64,000 nt of DNA. It comes from Sphingomonas sp. AP4-R1. Its GTDB lineage: Bacteria; Pseudomonadota; Alphaproteobacteria; Sphingomonadales; Sphingomonadaceae. The first letter of the stretch is position 1; every line of letters begins with the position of its first letter. A model generated the notes under the pieces. The model worked only from the letters and a program-made list of their open reading frames with translations. It did not search any database and was not told the origin of the DNA. Below, one piece after another: positions 29,078 through 47,236 of this stretch. Both the position numbers and the translations under genes were made by a program. The stretch covers positions 4,912,001 through 4,976,000 of the forward strand of contig NZ_CP053346.1 of NCBI RefSeq assembly GCF_013113735.1. Reading direction: 5' to 3'.

Positions 29078-29169
29078 AGGCCCTTCCCCCTGCGCCGTCC
29101 CGATCGTGCATCGGGATCCCGCGAAACGCACAGGACGGGCAGACCCAAACGGCCCACCCGCCCGATTTT

Positions 29170-32139: not shown

Positions 32140-32320
32140 CTTATCCTCCCCACCCGGCTATTCTGTGCCGGCGAAGGGGAAGAGGCCCGGAGCCCGAAAA
32201 TCCTTGAAAAGAAAATTTCGGCGGACGCATTTTTGTGGGCGACCGTGCGCCGGGACGACCGTGGACGGGATAGGATGGGGCGACTTCTGACCTGTCGGAG
32301 CGGGCCCGGCGCCATCCGGC

Positions 32321-33274
32321 TCAGAGAGCCCGCGAACCCGGAACACCTATCCGAATATCTCCCGTGGACGGGATGGCGACCGGCGCGTTCAGCGTCACGC
32401 GCAGCGCCTTGGCGAACCCTTCGACGTCGTCGGTCCGGAAAAAGCCGTCCAGCCGTTCCTTGGCCAGCGCGGGATCGTCGAGGATCAATTGCCGGTCATT
32501 GTAGCGGTTGAACTCGCTGATCGCGGCCGCCACGGTTTCGCCCCGAAGATCGATGCGGCCATCGCGCCAGGCCAGCACATGATCCACCGATCCCTCCGCA
32601 TCGCGCTGGACCTGCGCGCTATCGGACAGGAATATCCGTTCGCCCGCCGACAGACGCACGCTGGCGGTGTCCTTGCCTTCGGTCCAGGCCTTCACCGTGC
32701 CTTCGGTGACGACGATGTCCGCCCCCTGTTCGCGACGCCGCACCGAAAATGCGGTGCCCACGGCCATGACGCGAACCGATCCCGCCTCCACGAGAAACGG
32801 GCGATGCGGATCGCGGGATACCTGGAACCACGCCTCGCCGCGCTTCAGGGTCACATCGCGGCTTTGCTCGGCGAAGGCGATCTTCATCTCGCTGGCGGTG
32901 TTGATCGCCGCCACCGATCCGTCGGGCAACGGCAGCCGCCGTATCTCGCCGACCTCCGTCTTGATGGTCCTGGCCTTCGTCCAAAGCGCGACGCCGCCCA
33001 CGAACGAGGCTGCCAGCGCCGCTCCTCCGCCCATCAGCAATCGACGCCGCAGAGGATTGATCTCCTCTTTCACCGGCGCCGCTTCGTCTTCGATCTTGTC
33101 GTCCAGCGCCAGCCACAAGGCCTGCGCGTGCAGGAAGGCGCCCCGATGCCGCCTATCCTGCTTCAGCCAGGCGTCCAGTTCCTGCTCATCGTCGAAGCTC
33201 CAGCCCGCACCGTCCATGCGGACGATCCAGTTCGTCGCGATATCGTCGATCTCGTTCCCGCTTGCGCTCGGCAT
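32321..33274 (-). CDS. fecR: FecR-family anti-sigma factor
   Basis: 317 aa. N-terminal DUF4880-like segment (ATNWIVRMDGAGWSFDDEQELDAWLKQDRRHRGAFLHAQALW), single transmembrane helix (LLMGGGAALAASFVGGVALW, about residues 80-100), then the periplasmic FecR domain (GEIRRLPLPDGSVAAINTASEM, FLVEAGSVRVMAVGTAFSVRR) and a C-terminal STN-contacting part. It holds the sigma factor until the loaded receptor signals. ATG 33274 starts 3 bases after the fecI stop; an alternative GTG 33292 would overlap fecI. Confidence 0.9.
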   Translation of the reverse strand: MPSASGNEIDDIATNWIVRMDGAGWSFDDEQELDAWLKQDRRHRGAFLHAQALWLALDDKIEDEAAPVKEEINPLRRRLLMGGGAALAASFVGGVALWTKARTIKTEVGEIRRLPLPDGSVAAINTASEMKIAFAEQSRDVTLKRGEAWFQVSRDPHRPFLVEAGSVRVMAVGTAFSVRRREQGADIVVTEGTVKAWTEGKDTASVRLSAGERIFLSDSAQVQRDAEGSVDHVLAWRDGRIDLRGETVAAAISEFNRYNDRQLILDDPALAKERLDGFFRTDDVEGFAKALRVTLNAPVAIPSTGDIRIGVPGSRAL

Positions 33275-33278
33275 CGAC

Positions 33279-33860
33279 TTACTTTCTCGCACTTCGCAGC
33301 CACCGATCCTTATCGGTGGCGATCACACGACTCCAGCCCAAACGAACGGCCTTCAATCCCAGCCAGAGCTGCTTTTCGACCGTTTTCTCGCTGATGCCGA
33401 GATGCTGCGCGATCTCCCGCTGCGACCATCCCTCGATCTTTCGCAATTCCATGATCTGGCGGCACTTGATCGGCAGCGCCCGGATCAGGCCCAGCAGGCA
33501 CTCATATTCCTGCCGGTCCGCCGCCTGCCGTTCGGGCGACTGCCCATGCAGGTCGTGACATGCATCGATCTCGGCGATCGTCTCGATCTTGACGATGCTT
33601 TCGCGCCGCAGCCGACGGATGGCGAGATTTCGCACGATCGAGAAGAAATAGGCGCGCGGATCGTCGATATGGCTGACGGTGTCGAGCGTCGCGATCCGGC
33701 AATAGGCATCCTGGATGATCTCGTCGCTGTCATCCTGCCTGACGCCCCAGCGCGACAGCCATGCCCGCACCTGACGCTCGCACGGAATGATATGCACGGA
33801 TACCCAGCGCGCACGCGCCATTCTCGATGCTGTCGCAGAGGAACCGTCCCTGCCCGACAT
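33279..33860 (-). CDS. fecI: FecI-like ECF RNA polymerase sigma factor
   Basis: 193 aa from ATG 33860, preceded by AAGGGG; a GTG two codons upstream is possible. Sigma region 2: DDSDEIIQDAYCRIATL and DDPRAYFFSIVRNLAIRRLRRES. Sigma region 4: LPIKCRQIMELRKIEGWSQREIAQHLGISEKTVEKQLWLGL. It directs transcription of the STN receptor operon. The upstream region carries the palindrome TTATCCGATAA (33930-33940), suggesting additional control by a repressor or activator of the sugar locus. Confidence 0.9.
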   Translation of the reverse strand: MSGRDGSSATASRMARARWVSVHIIPCERQVRAWLSRWGVRQDDSDEIIQDAYCRIATLDTVSHIDDPRAYFFSIVRNLAIRRLRRESIVKIETIAEIDACHDLHGQSPERQAADRQEYECLLGLIRALPIKCRQIMELRKIEGWSQREIAQHLGISEKTVEKQLWLGLKAVRLGWSRVIATDKDRWLRSARK

Positions 33861-33929
33861 ATCCACCCCTTATCTTCTGGCGTGACATGGATCCGGCAAA
33901 TCACGGACCGCAGCCGACTTCAGTATATT

Positions 33930-34022: not shown

Positions 34023-35153
34023 TCACCGCAGTTGGACATCCCATACTTTGGATCGCCGCGATGTCCCGCTCGGGCCGGTCACGTCCAATATCGTCACGAA
34101 ACTGCCCGCCTTGGCGAAGGCGTGGATCGGATGTCGCTCGGTAGAGCTGGTGCCGTCGCCAAAATCCCAGTGCCACCCCGTCGCCTCGCCCACGCTGTCA
34201 TCGTGAAAGGCGACGAGGCGGCGATCCATGTCGACGACCTTCCAGCTCCAGCGCGCCTCCAGCCTGGGCTGATATTGCGGCTCGACCGGCATGAGCCTGA
34301 ACAAGGGCAGATCGGAGCCGAGCGCGAACATCGGGCGCTGACTGGAGAGCGACCAGAAGCCGTTCTTCCGATCGGTTCTGACATCGTCATAGTCGATCAC
34401 GATCCAGCCGAGCGCGATCAGGGCATTCTCCCGCAGCTTCGATTCCACCGCGCGCTCCGGCCCCTCCGGCCCGGCATAATCGAACGGGGTGATGTAGAAT
34501 TCCAGCCGGTACGTGCCGCCCTGCCCCGGCTTGAAATTGTAGCTCTGGGCCGAGTTGGCGAAGGGGAAATCCTTGATCCATGTGGGGGAGCCCCACGCCA
34601 TCGCCCAATCCTTGTCCTTGCGGGGCGTCATGATGTGATAATTCTGGGCCTGCACACCGTGGCTGTACCAGTGGGTGAGCGAACCGGGCACGCGCGGGTC
34701 GGTCCTAGAGGCGCGCTCGCCGACCCATTCGGGTTTCCAGATATCCTGATGCTGGACGTCGATCAGGGGCGTGCCGGTGAGATCGGCATCCACCACCACC
34801 TCGAACGTGTCGTTGTGCAGGCCCGGCAGCGAGAAATCCCAATAATCGTCCTTGGCCTCGTACAGGAAATACAGCCGGTTGAGCCCCTTCACCCAGCCGA
34901 CCTTCACGCGGATGGTGAGCGTCTTGTCGGGATTGTGGTGGCCGCCGTCCTGATCCGTCATCTGGTCCTGGCCGACGACATAGCTGTCGGGCACCATGTC
35001 CCAGTCCGAAAAGTCACCGTCGATGCGCGGGATGCGGTCCTGCGGAAACTGGAACACCTTGTAGGTGGTCTGCGGCTTGTCGAACGCCGGGGCGGGAGCC
35101 GCCACCAGCCCCACCGCCAGCGCGGCTGCCGACAGAGCATGGGTGCGGATCAT
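34023..35153 (-). CDS. Exported CBM9-like protein with C-terminal PKD domain
   Basis: 376 aa. ATG 35153 has GAGAG six bases before it and gives a proper signal peptide (RTHALSAAALAVGLVAAPAPA); further ATGs up to 35171 overlap the upstream gene stop. The N-terminal half has the CBM9-like start IPRIDGDFSDWDMVP and Trp/Tyr-rich strands (LYFLYEAKDDYWDF, DTFEVVVDADLTG). The C-terminus is a PKD domain (GWHWDFGDGTSSTERHPIHAF). Probably periplasmic or outer-surface carbohydrate binding. Translation is likely coupled to the upstream PQQ dehydrogenase gene, so binding and oxidation of the same sugar is a sensible inference. Confidence 0.75.
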   Translation of the reverse strand: MIRTHALSAAALAVGLVAAPAPAFDKPQTTYKVFQFPQDRIPRIDGDFSDWDMVPDSYVVGQDQMTDQDGGHHNPDKTLTIRVKVGWVKGLNRLYFLYEAKDDYWDFSLPGLHNDTFEVVVDADLTGTPLIDVQHQDIWKPEWVGERASRTDPRVPGSLTHWYSHGVQAQNYHIMTPRKDKDWAMAWGSPTWIKDFPFANSAQSYNFKPGQGGTYRLEFYITPFDYAGPEGPERAVESKLRENALIALGWIVIDYDDVRTDRKNGFWSLSSQRPMFALGSDLPLFRLMPVEPQYQPRLEARWSWKVVDMDRRLVAFHDDSVGEATGWHWDFGDGTSSTERHPIHAFAKAGSFVTILDVTGPSGTSRRSKVWDVQLR

Positions 35154-35167
35154 CGTCATCTCTCTCA

Positions 35168-37516
35168 TCATTTCTTCGCGTCGAGCCGGAAGGCCACGAT
35201 CGCGTCGCCCTGCGGATCCTTGAGCGAGCCGCCGCCCGCCGGGATCACGACATACTGATGTCCGTCGGCGCCGCGATAGCTCATCGGCGTGGCATGCCCC
35301 CCGGCGGGCAATTTCGTCTGCCAGACGAGCTTGCCGCTATGGACGTCGAACGCGCGGAACATCTCGTCCTGCGTCGCGGCCACGAAGACCAGGCCGCCAC
35401 CGGTGGCCAGCGTGCCGCCGATGTTCGGTGCGCCCAGCACGATCGGTAGGCCCAGCCGCAATCCGAACGGACCGCTGGCGCGCGCATCCCCCAGCGGCCG
35501 CGTCCACACCGCCTTGCGCGTCTTCAGGTCGATCGCGGTGATCTCGCCATAAGGCGGCTTCTGGCAGGGCACGCCCAACGCCGAGAGGAACGGGCCCCAG
35601 TGCGCCGCATAGGGCGTGCCCGCCATCGCGCCGCCCGGAGCGGAATGGCCGCGCGGATCGACGCGGGGGATCAGGCCCTCGCGATCGGCCTGCGCCCGCG
35701 AGATGAGCTGGTCGCGATCCGCCATATGGTTGGAATTGACGATCAGCAGCCCGCGACCGGCATCGATCGAAACGCTCCCCCAGTCGATCCCACCCAGTTC
35801 GCCCGGATAGCGGATCGTGGGTGTCCTCCCCATCGGCGTGTACATGCCGTGATAGACGGACCGCCGGAACGCGATCCGGCAGGAAAGCTGATCGAAGGGG
35901 GTAAGGCCCCACATGTCGCGCTCGGTCAGGTCGCCCTTGAAGGGGCTCGGCATCCCGACCGAGAAAGGCTGGGTCGGCGCGGGGCGCTCGCCGGTTGCGG
36001 AGGCGGCCGGGGCCTTGCGCTCCTCGATGCGCGTGAGCGGACGCCCGGTGCGTCGATCGAGCACGAAGAGCTGCTCGGTCTTGGTCGCGAGGAGGATCGC
36101 GGGCACCGTCGCGTTGCCGACAGGAAAGTCGACGAGCGCAGGCTGCGCCGCGAGATCATAATCCCACAGATCGTGATGCACCGCCTGGAATTGCCAGCGG
36201 ATCGCCCCGGTGGTGGCGTCCAGCGCCACGAGCGAGGTGGCGAGGCGATCGGTGCTGGCGGTGCGCTGGGCGCCGAAGAAATCGGGGCTGCCATTGCCCA
36301 TCGGCACGAACACCAGATTGAGGCGATCGTCGCCGCTGAACACCGTCCAGGCGTTGGGCGTGGAGGGCGTGTAGATCGTGCCGGGCGGCGGAGGCTGGCG
36401 CGCCTCGGGCTTCGCGGGATCGAACGCCCATTTGAGCGTGCCCGTCACCGCATCATAGCCCCGGATCACGCCGGGCGGCACCTCGGTCGATTGGTTGTCG
36501 ACCACGTAAGCCCCGATCACGGCCGTACCGTTGACGATGGTCGGCGGTGAGGTCGGGTGGGTCCAGCCCTGCGGGATCTGGCCGAGGCCGTCGAGCAGAT
36601 CGGCCCGCCCGCCCGTGCCGAAACCCTGGCAGAAGGCGCCGGTCCTGGCGTCGAGCGCGATCAGATGGTTGTCGATCGTGCCCGCGATGATCCGGGTGGG
36701 GCAGTCTGCGGTCCCTGCCGGCGCATGGAAGAAGGTGACGCCCCGGCATGCGGGATGGCCGCCGGAGGAATCGCGGACGAGCGTATCGGTGCGCCACACC
36801 TGCCTGCCGGTCGTAGGATCGAGCGCGAAGACGGTGCTGAAGGCGGTGCAGCCATAGACGAGGCCGTCGGCCATCGTGGGATTGAACTGCAGCCCCCCGC
36901 GCCGCTTGCCGTCGGGCGACCGCAGGCCGCTATGATAGATCCAGGCCTGCTGCAGCCGGCCTACGTTGGCGGGCGTGATGTCCGCGAGCGGCGAATAGCG
37001 ATTGGCCGAGCGGTTACCGTAGCTGGGCCAATCGACCGGAGCGGCGGAGACGAGCGACGTGGGCGCGACGCCCTCGCCTTCGATCCCGGCGCCCCTGAGC
37101 AAAGGCGACAGCAGCACCACCAATGCGACGGCCGCCAGCACGCCCAACGCTGGACGAGCCCCCTTGCTCGCCATCGGCACGCGGCGGAACGCGAGCAGCA
37201 ATCCGATCGCGAGCGCCACCGGGAAGAAAAGACGCGGCATCAGCGCCCAGAAGTCGAAACCGCCTTCGGCCAGCGACCAGATGATCGTTACCGCAAGGAG
37301 CGCCGCCATCAGCCACAGCGCGGCCGGATTCCGCCGCCAGGCCAGCCACGCAATGGCCAGCAGCGCGATGCCCGCAGGCAGATAATAAGCCGATCCGCCA
37401 AGCGCGATCAGCCACGCCCCCGGAAGCGCCAGGCCAGCGCCGCTCACGGCGAATATCACGATCGCGATCCACAGCAGCCAGGGTCTTCGCCCCGATATGC
37501 GTTCTCGTCGGATCAT
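35168..37516 (-). CDS. Membrane-bound PQQ dehydrogenase, glucose/quinate/shikimate family
   Basis: 782 aa. Five N-terminal transmembrane helices (about 12-150, for example LLWIAIVIFAVSGAGLALPG and ALGVLAAVALVVLLSPLL) form the quinone-binding anchor. The periplasmic propeller follows: DWPSYGNRSANRYSPLADI, then HHDLWDYDLAAQP with the catalytic Asp, and C-terminal HATPMSYRGADGHQYVVIPAGGG, as in Gcd and QuiA. No vicinal Cys pair, as expected for this branch. It oxidises a sugar or cyclitol to a lactone or keto acid in the periplasm and reduces ubiquinone. The lactonase-like gene is divergent upstream, across 170 bases. Confidence 0.9.
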   Translation of the reverse strand: MIRRERISGRRPWLLWIAIVIFAVSGAGLALPGAWLIALGGSAYYLPAGIALLAIAWLAWRRNPAALWLMAALLAVTIIWSLAEGGFDFWALMPRLFFPVALAIGLLLAFRRVPMASKGARPALGVLAAVALVVLLSPLLRGAGIEGEGVAPTSLVSAAPVDWPSYGNRSANRYSPLADITPANVGRLQQAWIYHSGLRSPDGKRRGGLQFNPTMADGLVYGCTAFSTVFALDPTTGRQVWRTDTLVRDSSGGHPACRGVTFFHAPAGTADCPTRIIAGTIDNHLIALDARTGAFCQGFGTGGRADLLDGLGQIPQGWTHPTSPPTIVNGTAVIGAYVVDNQSTEVPPGVIRGYDAVTGTLKWAFDPAKPEARQPPPPGTIYTPSTPNAWTVFSGDDRLNLVFVPMGNGSPDFFGAQRTASTDRLATSLVALDATTGAIRWQFQAVHHDLWDYDLAAQPALVDFPVGNATVPAILLATKTEQLFVLDRRTGRPLTRIEERKAPAASATGERPAPTQPFSVGMPSPFKGDLTERDMWGLTPFDQLSCRIAFRRSVYHGMYTPMGRTPTIRYPGELGGIDWGSVSIDAGRGLLIVNSNHMADRDQLISRAQADREGLIPRVDPRGHSAPGGAMAGTPYAAHWGPFLSALGVPCQKPPYGEITAIDLKTRKAVWTRPLGDARASGPFGLRLGLPIVLGAPNIGGTLATGGGLVFVAATQDEMFRAFDVHSGKLVWQTKLPAGGHATPMSYRGADGHQYVVIPAGGGSLKDPQGDAIVAFRLDAKK

Positions 37517-37600
37517 GTCGTCCGATCCCTCATCCGGTCATCCTCTCCCGCGGGTGCTAGACGCGGCGCGGCCGGCCTGCATCCCGGGGTTGCGCCGCAG

Positions 37601-37617
37601 CCCTCACAGGATGAGAG
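37601..37617. promoter_or_regulatory. Putative IclR operator, site 1 (CCCTCA-N5-TGAGAG)
   Basis: CCCTCACAGGATGAGAG, one mismatch from CTCTCA-N5-TGAGAG. It lies 68 bases before the lactonase start and 85 bases before the divergent PQQ dehydrogenase start, so it could serve both. Confidence 0.6.
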
Positions 37618-37684
37618 ATCGGCCTCTGGCTTGGTTGGCGACGGGCGCGCCGGGTGCCACTTCTTCCATCCAACGGAGAAAGTC

Positions 37685-38668
37685 ATGACGGGAACCGGAA
37701 GCGAGATCGGGCGGCGTGCGCTGCTGGTCGGCGGAGTGGCGACGTTGGCGGCGGCCGCGACGGCCAATGCCGCCGCGCGCCCGATCCCGATCATCGATAC
37801 GCACATCCATCTGTTCGATCCGCGACGGCCGCAGGGCGCGCCCTATCGCGGCCCGCGCAACAGCCCGACCTATGAGAAAGGCGCGTTCCCGGCCGATTAT
37901 GCCGCGCTCGTCCGCCGTCATCACGTGATCGGCGCGATCGAGGTGGAGGCGAGTGCGTGGTTCGAGGACAATTTGTGGGTCCTCGAAACCGCCGCGCGCG
38001 ATCCGATCATGGTCGGCGCGATCGGCAACATGCCGATCGAAGCGGCGGACTTCGACAATATCGTCGCCCGCTTCGCCAAGGACCCCCTGTTCCGCGGACT
38101 GCGCTACGGCAATCTGTGGGGCTATGATCTCGGTGCGCGGGTTCGCGAGGCGCCGTTCCTCGCCGGGCTGAAGCGGATGGCGGAGATGGATCTGGTGCTG
38201 GACACCGCCAACCCCCGGCTCGATCTGATGCAGGCGGTGGTGCGCGTCTCCGATGCGGTGCCGAGCCTGCGCATCGTGCTGGATCATCTGCCGCGCTTCG
38301 ATCCCAAACCGGAGGAACAGGCGGAATACACGACGGTGCTGCGCGAGATCGCGCAGCGGCCCACGATCTTCGCCAAGCTGTCCGAGATCATCCATCCCGT
38401 GAACGGCAGGACGGCGACCACCGCCGAGGCCTATCGCGATCGCCTGCGGACTCTGATCGACGCGCTCGGGCCCGATCGCGTGCTGTTCGGCAGCGACTGG
38501 CCCAACATCCTGCAGGATGCCACGCTGGATCAGGTCTTCGCGGTGGCCCGCGACTTCTACGCCGATCGGCCGATCATCGAGCAGGAGAAGTATTTCTGGC
38601 GCAATTCCGTGGCCGCCTACAAATGGCGCGCCCGCTCGCCGGCACAGCATCGCCTGATCGCCGCATGA
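37685..38668 (+). CDS. Tat-exported amidohydrolase, sugar-lactonase-like
   Basis: 327 aa from ATG 37685 after GGAGAAAG; the long upstream open frame is a shadow of the PQQ gene. Tat-type signal GRRALLVGGVATLAAAATANA. Amidohydrolase-2 fold with metal motif IIDTHIHLFDP (His40, His42), LRIVLDHLPRFD, PTIFAKLSEI and VLFGSDWPN (Asp ligand). Family members include L-rhamnono- and L-fucono-lactonases. Export to the periplasm places it where the PQQ dehydrogenase would release a lactone, so hydrolysis of that lactone is inferred. An exported member of this normally cytosolic family is unusual. Confidence 0.78.
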   Translation: MTGTGSEIGRRALLVGGVATLAAAATANAAARPIPIIDTHIHLFDPRRPQGAPYRGPRNSPTYEKGAFPADYAALVRRHHVIGAIEVEASAWFEDNLWVLETAARDPIMVGAIGNMPIEAADFDNIVARFAKDPLFRGLRYGNLWGYDLGARVREAPFLAGLKRMAEMDLVLDTANPRLDLMQAVVRVSDAVPSLRIVLDHLPRFDPKPEEQAEYTTVLREIAQRPTIFAKLSEIIHPVNGRTATTAEAYRDRLRTLIDALGPDRVLFGSDWPNILQDATLDQVFAVARDFYADRPIIEQEKYFWRNSVAAYKWRARSPAQHRLIAA

Positions 38669-38682
38669 ACAGGTTCCCGACG

Positions 38683-38699
38683 CTCTCACCTGTTGAGAG
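38683..38699. promoter_or_regulatory. Putative IclR operator, site 2 (CTCTCA-N5-TGAGAG)
   Basis: CTCTCACCTGTTGAGAG, perfect 6-bp arms with a 5-base spacer. It lies 18 bases upstream of a TTGACA box before the second TonB receptor gene, a position suited to activation. Confidence 0.65.
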
Positions 38700-38717
38700 T
38701 GAACAGATTGGGCCGGT

Positions 38718-38747
38718 TTGACACTAACCTCCCCGCAGACACACTAT
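38718..38747 (+). promoter_or_regulatory. Candidate sigma-70 promoter of the second TonB receptor
   Basis: TTGACA at 38718-38723, an 18-base spacer and CACTAT at 38742-38747. The -10 box is weak, which fits dependence on an activator at the adjacent palindrome. Confidence 0.45.
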
Positions 38748-38824
38748 TTCAATGGCCGCCGGACCCATCCGGCAAGAACATAAAAGATCGAAAGCCAAAA
38801 AAGCTCGGTCACTGAGGAGGGTGT

Positions 38825-41611
38825 ATGAAGGGATTCCTTGAAGGGAGGCGGCTGCGCGTCGCACTTCTGTTGGGCGCCGGGCTCAACACCATGATTTTCA
38901 CCGATCCGGTTCTCGCACAGGCCAGCGCATCGAATCCCGCACCGCCGGCCGCTCCCGATGCGAGCGCCACCACCCTGCCGCCCTCACCTCCCGCGAGCCC
39001 GTCCGAGGCCGACGTCGCCGAAATCGTCGTCACCGGCTCCAGCATCCGCGGCGTGCCGCCGACGGGATCGCAGCTCATCCAGCTGAGCGCCGATGCCGTG
39101 GTCAATACCGGCGCCACCACGACGCAGGAATTGCTGTCGAACGTGCCGCAACTCGGCACGTTCAACACCGCCGTCCGCCCCGACCAGAGATCGAACGGCA
39201 TCATCTCCACCGCGCCGAACATTCGCGGTATCGGCCAGGCGCAGACCCTGGTGCTGATCAACGGCCACCGCCTCGTCGGCGTCGGCCAGCTCCAGAACAT
39301 TCCCGATCCCTCGATCGTGCCGCCGTCCGCCATCCAGCGCGTGGAGATCGTCGCGGACGGCGCCTCGTCGGTTTACGGCTCGGACGGTATTTCCGGCGTG
39401 GTGAACGTCATCACCCGGAAGGATTATGAGGGCCTCGAGACCTCGTTCCGCGTCGGTTACGGCGATCATTACAGCACGCTCAACGCCAATGCCGTCGCCG
39501 GCCACAAATGGGGCACCGGCGGCGTGATGGTATCGGCCGAATATACGAAGAACAGCCGGATCGCGAACAAGGACCGCGATTATCTGACCGAGGATTTCTC
39601 GGCCGTCGGCGGCCGCGACAATCGCGTGATCGGTACGCAGTGCACGCCGGGCACCTATCGTTACAACACGTCGGCCACGGGTGGGGCGACCGGCGACTAC
39701 ATCCAGTTCGGCACCGGCGCGCTCAATCCGCGCTGCAGCAATTTCAATGATGGCGACATCTATCCGAAGCAGGAACGGCTCAGCTTCTTCGGGTCGGGCC
39801 ATCAGGATGTGAACGACACGATCGACCTGTTCGGCGATGCATTCTACTCGCGCACGACCTCCGACGCGCTACGCCCCAGCGGCGGGCTCTACACCAGCGG
39901 CGTGATCACGCGCGCCAGCCCCTTCTTTCCGGCCGGCATTCCGGCGAACGTCCCCTCGATCACGGCCTATTACAACGTCAACCGGATCACCGGCATCCCC
40001 GAGCGCGATTCGCAGGACATTAGCGTCTATGGCGGCACGGTCGGCGCCAACGTGAAGCTGCCGCGCGAATTCGTGTGGACGACCTATGTGACCGGATCGC
40101 GCAGCAAGACCGATCTGCACGAGGGCAGCTTCAGCTCGATCGCCAATTCGGCGCTGATCAACGCGACCACCGCCGCCACCGCGATCGACCCCTTCGGCAA
40201 CGGCACCAGCGACCAGACCAGGATCACGTTGGCCGACTGGGAACAGCGCTATTTCTCCAAGCAGTATATCTGGGAGATCAACTCCAAGGTGGACGGGCGG
40301 CTGTTCACCCTGCCCGGCGGCGACGTGAAGATCGCCGTCGGCGGGGTCTATCGCCAGGAATCCTATGACGGCCTGTTCCTCAACGGCCGGATCGGGTTCC
40401 GCGAAGGCGTCGGCGCGCAGGCCGGGCTCCGCAAGGTCTATTCGGGCTTCGGCGAATTGTTCATTCCGATCTTCGGCGACAGCAACGCCACGACGATGCT
40501 CCACCGCCTCGATATCTCGCTCTCGGGCCGCTACGACCATTATAATGATTTCGGATCGACCAAGAATCCGAAGATCGGCGTGAACTGGTCGCCCGTCGGC
40601 GGCTTCACGCTGCGGGGCAGCTACAGCACCTCGTTCCACGCACCGGCCCTGCCCGACCTGTTCGGTCCGGACACGCGCGCGGGGTATCTCACGAACGGGC
40701 TCCTGCCTCCGGGAATGCCGGTCGGCTCGGTGCCCGGCGGCATCTTCATCGCCGGCGGCAATCCCGATCTCGATGCCGAAAAATCGAAGAGCTATTCGCT
40801 CGGCTTCGATTTCCAGCCGGAGAGCATTCGCGGGCTGCACGCCAGCCTCACTTATTACAATGTCCGCTTCAAGGGCCGCGTCGCCTTCCCGAATTCGGCC
40901 TTCTTCTATGTCGATCCGGCCTTCAATCCGTATTTCGTGAGCAATATCGTCTGCGCCAGCGGCTCCTATCCGACCGGCTCGAACTGCGTCTCCCGGCCGA
41001 TCGACAAGGCGACCGTCTACAATCTGGTCAAGAATCTCCCGCTGCAGGGCTTTCCCAATCCCGTGAACAGCGCGGCCGATCTGCCGGACATCTACAGCGT
41101 CACGATCCTGCGGCGCGCCAATCTCGGCCAGATCAATACGGACGGCCTGGATTTCGACGTGGGCTATCAGTTCGATACGCGCTTCGGCCAGATCGGTACG
41201 CAGGTTCAGGGCAATTACGTGATCAATTACGATCAGAGCGGCGCCCCGGGATCCGCGTTCGTCGATCAATTCAACTTCGGCCAGCAGCCTTTCAAGGCGC
41301 GCGCCCAGGTCTCGCTCAAGTCGGGCCCGTTCATCGGCGTGGTGACGGTCAATTATACGAGCAAGTACAAGAACCAGTATAATCTGGCGACCGGCGCGCT
41401 CGGCGTCGAAAAGATAGCGAGCTACACCACGGCCGATCTGCACTTTGGCTATCAATTCCCGCAGGGGGGCATTCTCAGCGGCAGCGAGATCGATCTCGAT
41501 GTGAGCAACCTGTTCGATCAGGATCCGCCCTTCATCCGCTCCGCCACCGGCTACGGCATCGGCGATGTGATCGGCCGCGTCGTGAGCGTCGCGGTTCGCA
41601 AGAAGTTCTGA
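38825..41611 (+). CDS. TonB-dependent receptor, no STN domain
   Basis: 928 aa from ATG 38825 after GAGGAGGG. The Sec signal ends near VLA-QA; an Ala/Pro/Ser linker leads straight to the TonB box and plug (EIVVTGSSIRGVPPTGS, TTQELLSNVPQLGTFNTAVRP, PNIRGIGQAQTLVLINGHRLVGVG, VYGSDGISGVVNVITRKDYEGLE). The barrel ends VVSVAVRKKF. Plug and barrel strongly resemble the STN receptor at 29170-32139, so the two are recent paralogues probably for related ligands. It has its own operator and promoter and a strong terminator, so it is a single-gene unit under IclR-type rather than FecI control. Confidence 0.92.
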   Translation: MKGFLEGRRLRVALLLGAGLNTMIFTDPVLAQASASNPAPPAAPDASATTLPPSPPASPSEADVAEIVVTGSSIRGVPPTGSQLIQLSADAVVNTGATTTQELLSNVPQLGTFNTAVRPDQRSNGIISTAPNIRGIGQAQTLVLINGHRLVGVGQLQNIPDPSIVPPSAIQRVEIVADGASSVYGSDGISGVVNVITRKDYEGLETSFRVGYGDHYSTLNANAVAGHKWGTGGVMVSAEYTKNSRIANKDRDYLTEDFSAVGGRDNRVIGTQCTPGTYRYNTSATGGATGDYIQFGTGALNPRCSNFNDGDIYPKQERLSFFGSGHQDVNDTIDLFGDAFYSRTTSDALRPSGGLYTSGVITRASPFFPAGIPANVPSITAYYNVNRITGIPERDSQDISVYGGTVGANVKLPREFVWTTYVTGSRSKTDLHEGSFSSIANSALINATTAATAIDPFGNGTSDQTRITLADWEQRYFSKQYIWEINSKVDGRLFTLPGGDVKIAVGGVYRQESYDGLFLNGRIGFREGVGAQAGLRKVYSGFGELFIPIFGDSNATTMLHRLDISLSGRYDHYNDFGSTKNPKIGVNWSPVGGFTLRGSYSTSFHAPALPDLFGPDTRAGYLTNGLLPPGMPVGSVPGGIFIAGGNPDLDAEKSKSYSLGFDFQPESIRGLHASLTYYNVRFKGRVAFPNSAFFYVDPAFNPYFVSNIVCASGSYPTGSNCVSRPIDKATVYNLVKNLPLQGFPNPVNSAADLPDIYSVTILRRANLGQINTDGLDFDVGYQFDTRFGQIGTQVQGNYVINYDQSGAPGSAFVDQFNFGQQPFKARAQVSLKSGPFIGVVTVNYTSKYKNQYNLATGALGVEKIASYTTADLHFGYQFPQGGILSGSEIDLDVSNLFDQDPPFIRSATGYGIGDVIGRVVSVAVRKKF

Positions 41612-41646
41612 TCCGGCTCCCGGTCGCCCATCCCGGCGGCTCAATG

Positions 41647-41682
41647 GGTCGGGCTTCCAGCGGGAAGCCCGACCTCTTTTTT
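41647..41682 (+). terminator. Rho-independent terminator of the second TonB receptor
   Basis: GGTCGGGCTTCC pairs with GGAAGCCCGACC (12 bp, perfect) around loop AGCG, followed by TCTTTTTT. The clearest intrinsic terminator in the window. Confidence 0.92.
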
Positions 41683-41726
41683 GTGCGCCTCGCGGCGCTG
41701 GACACGATCCGGCCCCCGGAGCATAA

Positions 41727-41737
41727 TTATCGTATAA
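41727..41737. promoter_or_regulatory. Near-palindrome TTATCGTATAA upstream of the IclR gene
   Basis: One mismatch from TTATCNGATAA. It lies about 190 bases before the regulator start and between terminator and operator site 3, in an otherwise gene-free gap. Confidence 0.4.
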
Positions 41738-41800
41738 ATGTTCGCGACACCGAACGAAGAATGCGTCATGCTCCGGCAAGAGGCCTCGCGAGGGATCGAC

Positions 41801-41817
41801 ATCTCATCAGGTGAGAG
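41801..41817. promoter_or_regulatory. Putative IclR operator, site 3, upstream of the iclR gene itself
   Basis: ATCTCATCAGGTGAGAG. Read on the other strand, site 2 is CTCTCAACAGGTGAGAG, identical at 15 of 17 positions. It lies 108 bases upstream of the regulator start, suggesting autoregulation. Confidence 0.6.
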
Positions 41818-41924
41818 GGGGACGCTGCCGACGGCGTGTCAGACGTGGGCGAACAGCCCTGAGATACGATAAAAGACGCACCAAAATGGGCCGGAAAAAG
41901 AGCCCTAAACAGGAGGAGAGGCTC

Positions 41925-42761
41925 GTGGGAACTCCGAAAAACCAATCGGTTATGAAGGCTTTCGTCCTGTTGCGGGCGTTTCGCCGGCCGGATGAATGGC
42001 TGACCAGTTCGGAGTTGTCGCGACGCGCCAAGATGCCCGAGGCGTCCGGCTATCGGATGATGCAGACGCTGGAGGGGATCGGCGCGGTCGTTCGCGACGC
42101 GCGCGGGCGCTATCGCCCCGGCATGCTGCTGCTGGAACTTTCGCACAGCATCGACGCGCAGGATCTGTGGCGGACGGCGGCGCAGGCGATCATCGAACGC
42201 TGGTCCCAGCGCCTGGACATGATCGTCCAGATCGGGGTCTATGAAGAGGGCATGGTCACCTATGTCGCGCGTGCGGGCCGGCCACGCGGCAGCTTCCGGC
42301 TGGCGCAAGGCATGCAGTTCGAGGCGTATTGCACGGCGCTCGGCAAGGTTCTGCTCGCCGAACTCACCGAAACCCAGTTGAAGGACTTTTTCGGCGAGGG
42401 CGATCTCATCGCCTTCACGCCCCAGACGATCACCCGCGAAGGCGAACTGCGGGCGGAATTGCAGGAGATACGATCGCTCGGTTACGCGCTGGACGATCGC
42501 GAGACGCTGGACGATGTCCGCTGCGTCGCCGCTCCCGTCCGCGATGCCGCAGGACGGGTGGTTGCCGCCATCTCCTTCTGCGACGCCGCCGATCGACTGG
42601 CCGAGGGCCGCCGACGGGAGTTGATCAGGGATTTGCTGGATGCCGCAGGCGAAGTCGGGCGCCGCATCTATCCGTGGTGCGAAACGCCGACGATGGGCAA
42701 CCTGCCCTTGATCGCCGCGAAGGATACCAGCCTGATCGCGCAGTTCGGCGACGCCCTGTGA
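41925..42761 (+). CDS. IclR-family transcriptional regulator
   Basis: 278 aa from GTG 41925, which has AGGAGGAGAGG five bases before it; an in-frame ATG at 41886 has no ribosome site. Winged helix: SVMKAFVLLRAFRRPDEWLTSSELSRRAKMPEASGYRMMQTLEGIGAVVRD begins about residue 8. The effector domain carries RLAQGMQFEAYCTALGKVLLAEL, RSLGYALDDRETLDDVRCVAAPVRDAAGRVVAAISF. It should bind a small sugar-acid-like ligand. It is followed by an MFS gene in the same unit, and four palindromes of one type around the locus are the likely binding sites. Confidence 0.92.
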   Translation: MGTPKNQSVMKAFVLLRAFRRPDEWLTSSELSRRAKMPEASGYRMMQTLEGIGAVVRDARGRYRPGMLLLELSHSIDAQDLWRTAAQAIIERWSQRLDMIVQIGVYEEGMVTYVARAGRPRGSFRLAQGMQFEAYCTALGKVLLAELTETQLKDFFGEGDLIAFTPQTITREGELRAELQEIRSLGYALDDRETLDDVRCVAAPVRDAAGRVVAAISFCDAADRLAEGRRRELIRDLLDAAGEVGRRIYPWCETPTMGNLPLIAAKDTSLIAQFGDAL

Positions 42762-42781
42762 ATGCGGGCACGGGTGCCGGA

Positions 42782-44059
42782 ATGGCAACGAAGCGTGGCC
42801 GGCTGCGCTGGAGCGTCGTCACGTGGGCGTTCGTCATCAGCGCGGTCTCCTATCTCGATCGCAACAACATCTCGATCGCGGGCTCTTCGATCAAGGAGGC
42901 GTTCGCGCTCAGCGACAGGCAATTGGGTCTGGTCTTCTCGGCCTTCGCGCTGGGCTATGCGCTGAGCCAGCCCTTTGCGGGGCGGATCGCCGACCGGTTT
43001 GGCGCCTATCGCTGCGTGGCGGCCGCCATCGTCTGGTGGGGGGTGTTCACGGCGCTGACGGCGATGCTGCCGCCCGGCCTGCCGTTCGCCCTGACGCTGC
43101 TGATCCTCGTGCGCCTGCTGCTGGGCGTGGGCGAGGCCGTGATCTTCCCCGCGACCAACCGGCTGGTGAGCAGCTGGATTCCGCCATCCGAGCGCGGCTT
43201 CGCCAACGGCTTCATTTTCGCGGGCGTCGGCATCGGCGGCGGCATCGCGCCGCCGATGGTCACCGCGATCGTCGTGAATTTCGGCTGGCAATGGGCTTTC
43301 TACGCCAGCGCGATCATCGGGCTCCTCGTGGGCGTGGCGTGGCTGGCGGCGGTCCGCGATACGCCGGCCGAACACCCGTCCATCACGCCGCAGGAACTGG
43401 CCTATATCGAGGCACGCGTGGCGCCCAGGTCCCAAGGCGGCGCATCGACCAGCTGGCGCACCGTGATCAAGGATCGGCAGGTGCTGCTGCTCACGACGAG
43501 CTATTTCTGCTTCGGCTATGTCGCCTACATCTTCTTCTCCTGGTTCTTCATCTATCTGTCGAAGGTGCGCGGGCTGGATCTGAAATCCAGCGCCCTGCTC
43601 GCTACCCTGCCCTTCCTGGCGATGACGATCTTCTCGACGCTGGGCGGATCCGTGTCCGATCGCGTGGCGGCCCGGCATGGCGATCGCGTGGGGCGCTGCC
43701 TGATCGCCGCCGCCGCGATGATCCTGGCGAGCCTGTTCGTGGTGATCGCCACCGCCGTCTCCAGCGCGCAGTTAGCGAGCATCGTCCTCGCGGGCGGAGC
43801 CGGCTCGCTCTACTTCGCACAGAGCGCCTACTGGACGCTGAGCGCCAATATCGGCGGGCGATCGAGCGGCGTGCTTTCGGGCGTGATGAACATGGGCGCG
43901 CAGATCGGCGGGGTCGTCACCGCCTCGACCATGCCGATCGTGGCCGAAGCGTTCGGCTGGACCGCATCCTTCCTCGTCGCGGGCGGCATCGCGCTGATCG
44001 GCGGCCTGCTGTGGCTGCTGATCGATCCGCAGCACAGCCTGGCCGAAGCGGAGGGGTGA
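42782..44059 (+). CDS. MFS transporter, anion:cation symporter (hexuronate/sugar acid) type
   Basis: 425 aa, twelve predicted transmembrane helices. First-helix motif SYLDRNNISIAGSSIKEAFALSDRQLG and loop GRIADRFGAYR are typical of ACS-family transporters for hexuronates, glucarate or galactonate. Further marks are ATNRLVSSWIPPSERGFANG and GGAGSLYFAQSAYWTLSANIGGRSSGVLSG. ATG 42782 follows the iclR stop by about 20 bases; GTG 42758 overlapping that stop is an alternative. Inner-membrane import of a sugar acid made in the periplasm is the natural role. Confidence 0.88.
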   Translation: MATKRGRLRWSVVTWAFVISAVSYLDRNNISIAGSSIKEAFALSDRQLGLVFSAFALGYALSQPFAGRIADRFGAYRCVAAAIVWWGVFTALTAMLPPGLPFALTLLILVRLLLGVGEAVIFPATNRLVSSWIPPSERGFANGFIFAGVGIGGGIAPPMVTAIVVNFGWQWAFYASAIIGLLVGVAWLAAVRDTPAEHPSITPQELAYIEARVAPRSQGGASTSWRTVIKDRQVLLLTTSYFCFGYVAYIFFSWFFIYLSKVRGLDLKSSALLATLPFLAMTIFSTLGGSVSDRVAARHGDRVGRCLIAAAAMILASLFVVIATAVSSAQLASIVLAGGAGSLYFAQSAYWTLSANIGGRSSGVLSGVMNMGAQIGGVVTASTMPIVAEAFGWTASFLVAGGIALIGGLLWLLIDPQHSLAEAEG

Positions 44060-44064
44060 TGAGA

Positions 44065-44089
44065 GGGAGGCTTGCACGCCAAGCCTCCC
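44065..44089. terminator. Bidirectional stem-loop between convergent MFS and cupin genes
   Basis: GGGAGGCTTG pairs with CAAGCCTCCC (10 bp) around loop CACGC, six bases after the MFS stop codon. There is no long T-run, so efficiency is uncertain; its place between convergent genes supports a terminator role. Confidence 0.6.
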
Positions 44090-44129
44090 GACCAACCGCC
44101 GTATATGCAGCTTCGCGCCGAAAACGCGG

Positions 44130-44672
44130 TCAGGGCTGGGCGGACGCTTCGCTCCTGGGGATGTGCATCGAGATCAGCACAAGCTCCCCATCCGGCGCGG
44201 GGAATTGATGCGCGGTGCCGGCCGGTATGTAGAAGACGTCGCCGGGGCCGACCTTGATCGTGCGGCCGCCCTCGATGTGCATGCCGGAGACATTGCCGCC
44301 CTTGCCCGGCTTGGCATCGGTGATCGTGCCGCCCAGGATCAGCGTCCCCGTGCCGCGCACGACATGGAAAAGCTCGATGTCGGGATGTGTCGCGGCCGTC
44401 CAGCCGCCGCGCCGCACCTCGACGAAGCTGGTGTACGAGCCGAACTGGTGGATGGGCTGGACGATCACCGGCTGGCCCGGCTTCATTGCGCCTTCGGCAT
44501 GCCGGATGATCGCCTCGATTTCGGACGAGGTGGCGTAGCTCGGGATCGCCGTCGGCCCCTGCAGCGGCAGCGCCAGCGTATAAGCGGGCTGCTGGGCGCA
44601 GGCCGCACCGGCCAAAGCGAGCGCGCCGAGGCCGGCGAACGAACGAGCGAGGGCGGCCATCGGCATCACCAT
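44130..44672 (-). CDS. Exported cupin-domain protein
   Basis: 180 aa. ATG 44672 begins two bases after the upstream gene stop; further ATGs at 44666 and 44660 are possible. Sec signal (RSFAGLGALALAGAACA-QQ). The cupin barrel shows THPDIELFHVVRGTGTLILGG and later GPGDVFYIPAGTAHQFPAPDGELVLISMHIP, with His residues positioned for metal binding. It is the last gene of the dehydratase unit. Such cupins can be sugar isomerases, dioxygenases or KdgF-like enzymes acting on unsaturated or keto sugars; which applies here is unknown. Periplasmic placement matches the other enzymes. Confidence 0.75.
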   Translation of the reverse strand: MVMPMAALARSFAGLGALALAGAACAQQPAYTLALPLQGPTAIPSYATSSEIEAIIRHAEGAMKPGQPVIVQPIHQFGSYTSFVEVRRGGWTAATHPDIELFHVVRGTGTLILGGTITDAKPGKGGNVSGMHIEGGRTIKVGPGDVFYIPAGTAHQFPAPDGELVLISMHIPRSEASAQP

Positions 44673-44674
44673 TC

Positions 44675-45661
44675 TTATACGCGCAGATAGGGGCGCAGAT
44701 AGGTATCGAGCACGCGCCTGATCTCCTCGACCGAGCGCGCGGGCAGATAGCGTCCGGTGGACGCGCCCGCCGCCGCCGGCGCCGCACGCAGCGCCGTGCC
44801 CGGCTTGAACAGGCCGCGCGCGATCATCGTCTCCACCGCACTTTGCGAGAACATCGTGTTCGCCGCCTGGATCGCGCCGAAGATCTGGAACGCCTTGGCC
44901 TTGTCGCCCGCCTGCCACGCTTCCCACGCGCTCTGATAGACATCGGGCAGGCTCATGAACGGACACGCGCCGATGAAGCCGCGCTCCATCTCGGTGACGA
45001 GCGTGTTGGCACCGCGACCGGAGAAATCGGCCACCTCGCCCTTCGTGCGCCGGAGGAGTTCCTGGACGCGCTCCAGCGGCTCGCCGGATTCATCCTTCAC
45101 GTAGCGCATCGTCGGGATCGACTCGTACATCCGAACGAGCAGATCGACGCTCATCTTGCCCACGGCCTGCACGAACAGAGGCAGATGCGTCATCTTGCCG
45201 ACCTGCTGATAATAATCGAGCAAGGCCGCTTCGTCCGTCACCTTCTCGGGCGGGATGCAGATGATCGCGTCGGCACCGATCTTGGCCGCGTGCGCCGCAT
45301 AACGCTTCACCGCCGCCAGATCCGGACTTTGCACGCCGATCACGACGGCCGTCTCGCCCCCTTTGGCCGCCGCGACCAGCGCCTCGGCGCCCTGCAGACG
45401 CTCCGCCTCGCTGAGGACAGTCCAGCCGCTGGCGATCTGCGGCCAGGCGATGCCGGGCACGCGCGCACGACGCAGGAAGGTGACCTGCCCGCCCAATTGC
45501 GCGAAATCCACCTTGTCGGCCGCGTCGACCGGCGTCGCGCCGATCGGGAAGAGGCCGCGAAAGCGCGTGTCCGCCGCCGCCGCGCGCAGCAGCGCGCCGG
45601 GCATCGCGATCGCCGCCGCGCCCAGCGCGATCCCTTGCAGCACATGTCGCCGCGTCGGCAT
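44675..45661 (-). CDS. Tat-exported DHDPS/aldolase-family protein with atypical active site
   Basis: 328 aa from ATG 45661 (GGTGA before it; GTG 45670 overlapping the upstream stop is an alternative). Tat signal TRRHVLQGIALGAAAIA. The fold matches the dihydrodipicolinate synthase/N-acetylneuraminate lyase family with Schiff-base Lys189 in MRYVKDESG. However the usual GTTGE loop is replaced by IASGWTVLSEAER and the usual Tyr of the YNxP motif is absent (LPLFVQAV). It may be an aldolase or hydratase of 2-keto-3-deoxy acids, or a non-catalytic relative. An exported member of this family is unusual. Confidence 0.75.
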   Translation of the reverse strand: MPTRRHVLQGIALGAAAIAMPGALLRAAAADTRFRGLFPIGATPVDAADKVDFAQLGGQVTFLRRARVPGIAWPQIASGWTVLSEAERLQGAEALVAAAKGGETAVVIGVQSPDLAAVKRYAAHAAKIGADAIICIPPEKVTDEAALLDYYQQVGKMTHLPLFVQAVGKMSVDLLVRMYESIPTMRYVKDESGEPLERVQELLRRTKGEVADFSGRGANTLVTEMERGFIGACPFMSLPDVYQSAWEAWQAGDKAKAFQIFGAIQAANTMFSQSAVETMIARGLFKPGTALRAAPAAAGASTGRYLPARSVEEIRRVLDTYLRPYLRV

Positions 45662-45666
45662 GGTAA

Positions 45667-47067
45667 TCACCGCAGGATCTTCTTCGTCGCGCGATCGAAG
45701 GCGGCGCGATCAATCTCCACGCCCAGCCCCGGCGCGGTCGGCGCGTGAATATAGCCGTCCTTATCGGGGCGATACCTGGCCGGCATATAGGGATGATCCA
45801 CCAGAGTGGGCGGATAGGGCACTTCGAACCACGAGGCGTTGGGCAAGGCCAGCTCCAGATGGAAATGCACGGCGAGGTCCATCGGGTTGCCCCAATTGTG
45901 CGGCGTGCATTCCAGCCCGAAGGCGTCCGCGAGCAGGCCCACGCGCATCGATCCGCTGATGCCGCCCGTATTGTCCGCGATCAGGCGGACCACATCGAGC
46001 GCGCCCTTGGCGATATAATCGGCGAAATCGGCGATCGAATAGATGAACTCGCCGACATGGATGGGCAGGTTCGCATATTTGCACAGCTCGATCAGGCCAT
46101 CCTGATCGTCGGTCCGCAGCGGATCCTCGAACCAGGAGAAATCGAGATCGTCGAGCACGCGGGCGACCTTCATCGCCTCGTAGCGATTGTACATCATCAC
46201 CGGATCGTGGGCGAGGATATACTCGTCGCCCACCGCCGCACGGATCTGCCGGGCCTCCTCGATATGGCCGAGATAGGCCGGCACGTCCGCGCCCTTGCGG
46301 TGCGCGCCCGTGCCGGGGTGGATCTTGTAGGCGCGGAAATTCTCGGACTTCGCCTTCAGCGCTTCCGGCGCATAATCCTCGATGCTCGGGTGATGGGTGG
46401 AACTGGCATAGGCCATCAGCTTGGTCTTCTGCGCGCCGACGCCGCCGTGCAGGATCTGGTAGATGGGCCGGTTCACGGCCTTGCCCATGATATCCCACAG
46501 GCAGACATCGGCCGCCGCGCGATACCAGTTCGGCCAGGCGCCCCCGCCCCGCAGGACGAGGCCGCTGCCGCGCAGCGCCTCGGTCATGAAAGCGGACTCG
46601 TCGCCCACCCCGCCGCGCCGGCCGAAGGTCTGCGCCCCGGTGTAGCGGCCCGTATCCTTGGGATCGCCGATCTGCCCGTTGAAGCCGTACGTGCCCTTGA
46701 GCCCCGACGTGGAGGCCAGCGAGGGCAGCAGATCGACGACGCTCTTGCCGACCAGCGTGGCCTTGGCCCAATCGACCCAGCCCTGCGCCGGCGTCTTGTT
46801 GCGGTTGCCGAGCGTGTAGAGCCCCTCGATCCCGCTGTTGGTGGTGATCGAGACGATCTCGCCCACTTCGCCGTTCAGGCTCTTGTAGCTGCCGATATCG
46901 GTGACGTAGGCCTTCACCTCCTTCACGGTCAGGTCGGGCAGATCGCCCGATTTCACGCCGACCGTCTGCGCGGCGGCCGTGCCCGGATCGGCCAGCGCCG
47001 CGAACCCCGCCGTGGCGAGCGCCGCCGAGGAGCCGAAGAACTCGCGCCGGGAAGCCATGGGATTCAT
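45667..47067 (-). CDS. Tat-exported enolase-superfamily (mandelate racemase-like) sugar-acid dehydratase
   Basis: 466 aa with Tat signal SRREFFGSSAALATAGFAAL, cleaved near AAAQ-T. Mandelate racemase-like lid and barrel: candidate catalytic residues Lys248 and His250 (AYKIHPG), metal ligands Asp288 (LAHDPV), Glu314 (SWFEDPL) and Glu340 (IHVGEF), and His390 (CTPHNWGNP). This pattern fits acid-sugar dehydratases that form 2-keto-3-deoxy acids. First gene of the dehydratase, DHDPS-like and cupin unit, preceded by a perfect CTCTCA-N5-TGAGAG palindrome 79 bases upstream. Most relatives are cytosolic; here export is clearly encoded. Substrate unknown. Confidence 0.82.
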   Translation of the reverse strand: MNPMASRREFFGSSAALATAGFAALADPGTAAAQTVGVKSGDLPDLTVKEVKAYVTDIGSYKSLNGEVGEIVSITTNSGIEGLYTLGNRNKTPAQGWVDWAKATLVGKSVVDLLPSLASTSGLKGTYGFNGQIGDPKDTGRYTGAQTFGRRGGVGDESAFMTEALRGSGLVLRGGGAWPNWYRAAADVCLWDIMGKAVNRPIYQILHGGVGAQKTKLMAYASSTHHPSIEDYAPEALKAKSENFRAYKIHPGTGAHRKGADVPAYLGHIEEARQIRAAVGDEYILAHDPVMMYNRYEAMKVARVLDDLDFSWFEDPLRTDDQDGLIELCKYANLPIHVGEFIYSIADFADYIAKGALDVVRLIADNTGGISGSMRVGLLADAFGLECTPHNWGNPMDLAVHFHLELALPNASWFEVPYPPTLVDHPYMPARYRPDKDGYIHAPTAPGLGVEIDRAAFDRATKKILR

Positions 47068-47145
47068 GCGATGTCGCGCCTCTGCCTGATGTTTATCATT
47101 CTCCCCCGGACTTTGGCCGACGCCCTTGGCGGGCGCAAAAACCGC

Positions 47146-47162
47146 CTCTCACGATGTGAGAG
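47146..47162. promoter_or_regulatory. Putative IclR operator, site 4 (CTCTCA-N5-TGAGAG)
   Basis: CTCTCACGATGTGAGAG, perfect 6-bp arms, 79 bases upstream of the exported dehydratase start. Best match together with site 2. Confidence 0.65.
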
Positions 47163-47236
47163 ATGAGGCTTCCTGCGGCGGCGAGGTGATCTCGATCGAC
47201 ATGGCGAGCGCAGCGAAGCCATCCATCCCCGCACGC

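Follow-up and report, generated by a model that had tools for sequence, protein, structure and literature searches.

Can a bacterium take a sugar through oxidation, lactone opening, and dehydration before its carbon enters the cytoplasm? The question is raised by a block of nine genes at 34023 to 47067 of the window, the 64,000-nucleotide stretch of the Sphingomonas sp. AP4-R1 genome (contig NZ_CP053346.1) analyzed here. Our preferred reading, to which we give a probability of about 0.5, is that a non-phosphorylative sugar-acid pathway located outside the cytoplasm is encoded in the block, so that sugars would be broken down in part before uptake. Its sequence basis consists of export signals, protein families, conserved catalytic-type residues, and linkage in two genomes, and from these we infer the reactions, their order, the transport steps, and the substrate. 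The nine genes, one of which encodes a dehydrogenase dependent on pyrroloquinoline quinone (PQQ) and three of which carry twin-arginine translocation (Tat) signals, are as follows.

34023..35171, minus strand: secreted PKD-domain protein, first gene of the block (PF18911, 43.1 bits; Sec-like signal by eye)
35168..37516, minus strand: membrane-bound PQQ dehydrogenase of the glucose/quinate/shikimate family (TIGR03074), overlapping the start of the PKD gene
37685..38668, plus strand: amidohydrolase with a Tat signal, L-fuconolactonase-like, a probable lactonase (PF04909)
38825..41611, plus strand: TonB-dependent outer-membrane receptor (PF00593, PF07715)
41895..42761, plus strand: IclR-family regulator, start uncertain (PF01614, PF09339)
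42782..44059, plus strand: MFS transporter of the galactonate-transporter (ACS) type, the sole MFS gene of the block (TIGR00893, 260.3 bits against a cut-off of 395)
44130..44672, minus strand: cupin with a Sec-like signal by eye (PF07883, 44.9 bits)
44675..45670, minus strand: DHDPS-family enzyme with a Tat signal and Schiff-base K189 (PF00701, 51 bits)
45667..47067, minus strand: enolase-superfamily enzyme with a Tat signal (PF13378, 164.7 bits)

The extent of the block is drawn from 52 kb of Sphingomonas natans with which the window was compared, and in which all nine genes recur in identical order and orientation. The encoded proteins are 90.7% (PKD protein, residues 30 to 382), 82.2% (PQQ dehydrogenase), 79.5% (amidohydrolase), 81.2% (TonB receptor), 80.9% (IclR regulator), 90.6% (MFS transporter), 77.9% (cupin, residues 27 to 180), 87.8% (DHDPS-family enzyme), and 91.2% (enolase-superfamily enzyme) identical between the two organisms. 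The flanks differ on both sides. Genes of the GH106, FecR, sigma factor, and sugar porter types beside the block are unmatched at E 1e-10 in the S. natans segment, the sole match there of an STN-type TonB gene is the receptor of the block itself, and the flanking MFS gene at 47237, an SDR gene, and a galactonate dehydratase gene find distant matches only. On this sequence comparison the functional unit is the nine genes from 34023 to 47067, which sets its start at 34023 and delimits it better than did an earlier reading of the same DNA (the original prediction).

That prediction had described consecutive enzyme genes with export signals, near a membrane PQQ dehydrogenase and served by two ACS-type transporters, as a periplasmic oxidative pathway. 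The open reading frames and N-termini lie where it had put them, and the genes do form one block, but the TonB receptor, IclR, and MFS genes stand between those for the enzymes and both strands are used. The conserved signals, and the linkage of the PQQ enzyme and one ACS-type transporter within the block, agree with the periplasmic pathway it proposed; the second transporter, 47237, is lost from it and is placed outside the module, because the flank in which it lies has no conserved counterpart in S. natans. Judged by annotation and N-termini, all block products are outer-membrane, inner-membrane, secreted, or regulatory proteins, and no evident cytosolic enzyme is found among the nine.

The location of the enzymes turns on their N-termini. 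The enolase-superfamily protein begins MNPMASRREFFGSSAALATAG, with SRREFF followed by a hydrophobic stretch; the DHDPS-family protein begins (V/M)ITMPTRRHVLQGIALGAAA, with TRRHVL and a hydrophobic stretch, and its gene start, either GTG or an ATG three codons further on, overlaps the enolase stop; and the amidohydrolase begins MTGTGSEIGRRALLVGGVATLAAA, with GRRALL, again followed by a hydrophobic stretch. Homologues were scored for two arginines among the first residues and a subsequent hydrophobic 13-residue window, a crude rule of our own rather than SignalP. A Tat-like signal was found in 114 of the best 120 enolase homologues (out of 1180 matches; 115 under a slightly wider rule), in 116 of the best 120 DHDPS homologues (out of 565) under both versions, and, with the wider rule, in 107 of the best 120 amidohydrolase homologues (out of 4149). 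Inspection by eye suggests that 20 of these 23 exceptions are truncated, starting inside the domain, or over-extended; the other three are the enolases P0056 and P0111, with a single arginine, and P0054, which falls just under the hydropathy threshold. The genome encodes TatC.

The occurrence of several such signals in one block is, by itself, only weak evidence. Tat-like N-termini occur in 22 of 277 background open reading frames of the same genome (7.9%, a figure inflated by membrane proteins and by a lenient scan of any start), from which the chance of at least three among nine genes is P = 0.03. The case for the signals therefore rests on their conservation and not on their clustering.

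It might be supposed that the signals arise from faulty annotation and that the enzymes are cytosolic, as members of these families usually are. Of the 12 other enolase-superfamily loci of the genome, seven were viewed at their ATG starts (the first five per frame), and in these no Tat signal is seen, nor is one seen in a DapA-like paralogue (L013) viewed in the same way. This explanation is nevertheless highly improbable. Two arginines and a hydrophobic stretch are present in 337 to 338 of the three sets of 120 best homologues, so that the homologues without signals which the original prediction had named as a possible refutation are not what is found; with nearly all of them carrying signals, mis-called starts are very unlikely to be the source. 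A GGAG motif lies directly upstream of the amidohydrolase ATG, and in the AlphaFold model of the DHDPS-family protein the first 30 residues form a low-confidence segment ahead of the barrel (mean pLDDT 69, 60, and 53 for each ten residues). On these grounds we take the export signals of the amidohydrolase, DHDPS-family, and enolase-superfamily proteins to be real, and the sequence evidence for a periplasmic location of the three enzymes is strong. The three twin-arginine signals originally reported at 37685, 44675, and 45667 are thus borne out, as is the Sec signal of the cupin at 44130, in which a hydrophobic, Sec-like N-terminus is seen by eye both here and in S. natans.

Related genes occur elsewhere in both genomes. 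At about 4.4974 to 4.5016 Mb of the AP4-R1 genome (L020:7443-11601), an MFS-like gene is accompanied by genes for two proteins whose N-termini are Tat-like (L020:7443-8720 and L020:8899-10017); the second protein reads MERRAFMALGG and is mannonate-dehydratase-like by eye, and a DHDPS-family match and enolase-family matches come next. Some 24 to 28 kb past the block in S. natans (L024:7117-10895), there is an enolase-family gene, found by tblastn, and an amidohydrolase-like gene by eye that has no evident signal. Signal-less counterparts may therefore coexist with exported enzymes in S. natans.

What would these enzymes do in the periplasm? The only one that exceeds an NCBIfam cut-off is the PQQ dehydrogenase, which passes TIGR03074 with 866.8 bits against 832.65 over residues 19 to 779. 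Along 782 aligned residues it is identical to E. coli Gcd at 319 positions, and its D452 and K479 align with Gcd D466 and K493, which we take to be the catalytic aspartate and the PQQ-site lysine, respectively. The membrane dehydrogenase of glucose/quinate type that had been noted nearby is part of the conserved block.

The breadth of TIGR03074, which spans glucose, quinate, and shikimate enzymes, also admits a different substrate, a cyclic polyol of the quinate or cyclitol type, and the module would then be functionally akin to the quinate pathway and not a route for sugars. The IclR regulator scores best with the PcaR/PcaU/PobR subfamily model, at 134.1 bits where the cut-off is 284.75, and the layout resembles that of QuiA-QuiB-QuiC. 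Even so, we consider a cyclic substrate improbable: neither dehydroquinate nor dehydroshikimate dehydratases are represented among the Pfam matches of the nine genes, a Schiff-base keto-acid enzyme combined with a lactonase-like protein suits sugar acids better, and sugar genes are present in both flanks.

A weak point of the proposed pathway lies in its first step and counts against our reading. No PqqE is recognizable in the genome, the best match scoring 47 bits against a cut-off of 381.35, which is passed in 26 of 142 genomes of the class. PqqC was unmatched in this genome and in G002, a result made uninformative because no control gave a match either. Because of the missing PqqE, the PQQ for the dehydrogenase may come from outside, for example from neighbors, and E. 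coli Gcd likewise depends on external PQQ. A further quinoprotein dehydrogenase-type gene lies at 14826 to 16568 of the window, though no PqqE in the genome passes the cut-off. Its neighbors, up to 24807, include a solute-binding-protein match, a YVTN-type propeller, a metallo-beta-lactamase-fold protein with a Tat-like start (23066 to 24007), and a SoxY/SoxZ protein (24004 to 24807).

The other enzymes can be placed in families, although their reactions are less well defined. The amidohydrolase is, by sequence, an Amidohydro_2 protein resembling L-fuconolactonase, and a role as a lactonase is probable; its score against the L-fucono-1,5-lactonase model NF052480 is 90.8 bits, below the cut-off of 400. 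Membership of the enolase-superfamily protein in the MR/MLE group is indicated by its barrel (PF13378, 164.7 against 29.4 bits) and by D288, E314, and E340, which resemble metal-ligand acids and, together with K248, H250, and H390, do not vary in any of the 42 aligned rows. In the alignment its active site is non-canonical, and against the acid-sugar dehydratase models of NCBIfam (ManD, galactonate, rhamnonate, and talarate/galactarate) its best score is 111.6 against 550 bits.

Profile score, predicted fold, and the Schiff-base lysine assign the remaining enzyme to the DHDPS/N-acetylneuraminate lyase family. Its AlphaFold model (pLDDT 90.6) has the DHDPS fold, and K189 and E191 (numbered from the ATG at 45661) are present in every one of the 49 rows, out of 50 aligned, that have no gap there. 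Position 165, presumably the site of the usual tyrosine, is a glutamine, and the sequence of L-2-keto-3-deoxyarabonate dehydratase also reads VQ there. Among solved relatives this dehydratase ranks highest, first by sequence (2.5e-11) and tied by profile and by fold (a fold list from which the absence of a family excludes nothing), with 22% identity in the structural alignment. Two papers place it in the DHDPS superfamily (PMC6336799, PMC7374468).

We attempted to assign the enolase-superfamily, DHDPS-family, and amidohydrolase proteins to known enzymes and rejected every candidate, as all three score far below every NCBIfam cut-off. The "dehydratase" and "lactonase" labels of the original prediction are inferences. 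The cupin presents a separate oddity, a match of its residues 40 to 91 to MS2 coat-protein chains in the PDB (E about 1e-6), which is probably spurious.

When these families are placed into the context of the block, a route can be proposed. The TonB receptor would admit a sugar or small saccharide to the periplasm, where the membrane PQQ dehydrogenase would oxidize an aldose to its aldonolactone and reduce the quinone pool with the electrons released. The lactone would then be opened by the Tat-exported amidohydrolase, and the exported enolase-superfamily enzyme would dehydrate the aldonate to a 2-keto-3-deoxy acid, which the exported DHDPS-family enzyme could further dehydrate, or cleave, via its Schiff-base lysine. 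The resulting acid would be imported by the MFS symporter, with the IclR protein regulating the block.

A linear route is not the only way to accommodate exported enzymes. It is possible, and a serious contender though doubtful, that the PQQ enzyme yields an acid for energy and the others trim or isomerize different TonB-imported plant compounds, such as glycosides or uronic-type acids. The non-canonical active site of the enolase-superfamily protein would fit such independent roles, as would the distribution of homologues. Some of the enolase and DHDPS homologues carry the names Acidobacteria, Rhizomicrobium, Povalibacter, or Steroidobacteraceae, in which the three genes do not necessarily occur together, and in a Bryobacterales genome (G442) neither of two Tat-type DHDPS paralogues shares a contig with the enolase. 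Against it, the nine genes are kept together in two genomes despite changed flanks, and the enolase, DHDPS, and cupin genes are tightly ordered, with ends that overlap or nearly adjoin.

Linkage beyond these two genomes was approached through a proxy, in which homologues in the best-120 lists were paired when their longest contigs had equal length (at least 3 kb) and a shared source tag. Among the matches listed, this gave only five enolase-DHDPS, three enolase-amidohydrolase, and six DHDPS-amidohydrolase pairs, on 12 lengths, with a single length (172977) common to all three enzymes; the same pairing at six shifted lengths gave 0 pairs. Equal length is no proof of one contig, and most entries had no partner. 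At lengths 7097, 33007, 13217, and 120752 the proteins are 76 to 91% identical to those of the window and probably belong to close relatives, and at the other eight they are 55 to 79% identical. The pairing points to linkage of the three enzyme genes in more divergent organisms too, while gene-for-gene linkage of the block is established in two genomes, those of the window and S. natans.

The genes are rare in genome surveys. With the first four to five candidates scored per genome in the large surveys, under strict E limits, and the genome of the window itself counted among the matches, the enolase was found in 2 of 59 relatives (E 1e-60), 1 of 385 genomes of the class (E 1e-90), and 2 of 397 of the family (E 1e-80), and the DHDPS gene in 1 of 398 of the phylum (E 1e-60). 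Among 396 genomes of the phylum to which G442, the Bryobacterales genome, belongs, the enolase search gave one match (E 1e-90), in G442 itself. Plasmids gave one enolase match of 36.5% in a different context and no DHDPS or amidohydrolase match. Yet the protein collection holds at least 120 enolase homologues at 60 to 91% identity (the best 120 of 1180).

The neighboring genes were considered as a guide to the substrate and set aside, as they point in different directions in the two genomes. Beside the block in S. natans, an AraD1 protein, a GluP-type transporter, and an epimerase score above their cut-offs and an arabinosylfuranosidase model matches under its cut-off, a set that we read as an L-arabinose route. 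In the window, a galactonate dehydratase and a sugar porter exceed their cut-offs, and rhamnosidase-type genes are also present. Because the flanks differ, they leave the substrate unfixed. L-Arabinose and D-galactose have a common configuration at C2 to C4, and since the flanks hold arabinose-like genes in S. natans and galactonate genes here, it could be guessed, with low confidence and weak support, that the substrate is an aldose of arabino or galacto configuration, L-arabinose for example, and that the outcome resembles that of the Weimberg pathway, giving α-ketoglutarate semialdehyde.

Before the block, at 26870 to 33866, lies what looks like a separate rhamnoside-uptake unit, which was not found in the 52 kb of S. 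natans: a GH106-type alpha-L-rhamnosidase whose N-terminus is signal-like, a TonB receptor of the STN type, and two genes that by eye are FecR-like and sigma-like. Terminator-like hairpins in the region number 8 against 6.6 expected from shuffles and are suggestive only, and promoters number 1 against 2.0 expected. Two of the hairpins are located as follows.

41646..41675, plus strand: terminator-like hairpin of 13 pairs, 3' of the TonB receptor gene (suggestive only)
47145..47163, minus strand: terminator-like hairpin between MFS 47237 and the enolase operon (suggestive only)

If the proposed pathway is correct, enolase-superfamily and DHDPS-family enzymes, which are cytosolic in textbooks, form an exported catabolic chain coupled directly to the respiratory chain, ATP is spared on phosphorylation, and carbon is captured ahead of competitors. 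The assumed compartment of such enolase-type proteins would have to be revised in many bacteria, because the best 120 homologues, at 60 to 91% identity, nearly all carry a signal. We tentatively suggest, at somewhat less than even odds, that the whole route from aldose oxidation to the keto-deoxy-acid Schiff-base enzyme lies in the periplasm, that the inner membrane is crossed only by an acid that central metabolism can take up at once, and that the exported set may be common in little-sequenced bacteria.

How does this compare with known systems? The "periplasmic trapping" systems of Gcd and Zymomonas GFOR are alike in oxidizing aldoses in the periplasm, with Tat signals on GFOR, but their periplasmic part ends once the aldonate or keto-aldonate has formed. 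What follows in those systems, dehydration included, takes place in the cytosol. The Weimberg and non-phosphorylative L-arabinose pathways use the same reaction types, and L-2-keto-3-deoxyarabonate dehydratase is the best-ranked solved relative of the DHDPS-family protein; the differences are the identity of only 22% to that enzyme and the enolase-type enzyme for the first dehydration in the block. Those pathways are cytosolic. In 3-keto-glycoside pathways with exported Gfo/Idh oxidoreductases, supposedly cytosolic families act outside the cytoplasm, with C3 chemistry and other families. Tat signals are described on periplasmic Zymomonas GFOR and on Caulobacter AAOR (PMC4628093), and a review describes how sugars become sugar acids in the periplasm ahead of transport (PMC12076931).

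The original prediction knew of no characterized pathway laid out in this way. For sugar acids, no account of a periplasmic chain with dehydration was found among the papers listed in a search to which subscription papers were mostly inaccessible, but the statement needs qualifying, since quinate catabolism in Acinetobacter has the same layout. In Acinetobacter baylyi, QuiA oxidizes quinate, QuiB and QuiC carry out dehydrations in the periplasm, and the product then passes to the cytoplasm (PMC4213383); a passage that lists the same reactions for acetic acid bacteria does not place the dehydratases (PMC9171043). The likeness lies in a periplasmic dehydrogenase followed by dehydrations and later import, as proposed for the block; the quinate route differs in the families that act after the first step, in its alicyclic substrate, and in having neither lactone opening nor a Schiff-base keto-deoxy-acid enzyme. 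The periplasmic quinate pathway is the closest known layout, and the new element would be sugar-acid dehydration and keto-deoxy-acid chemistry outside the cytoplasm.

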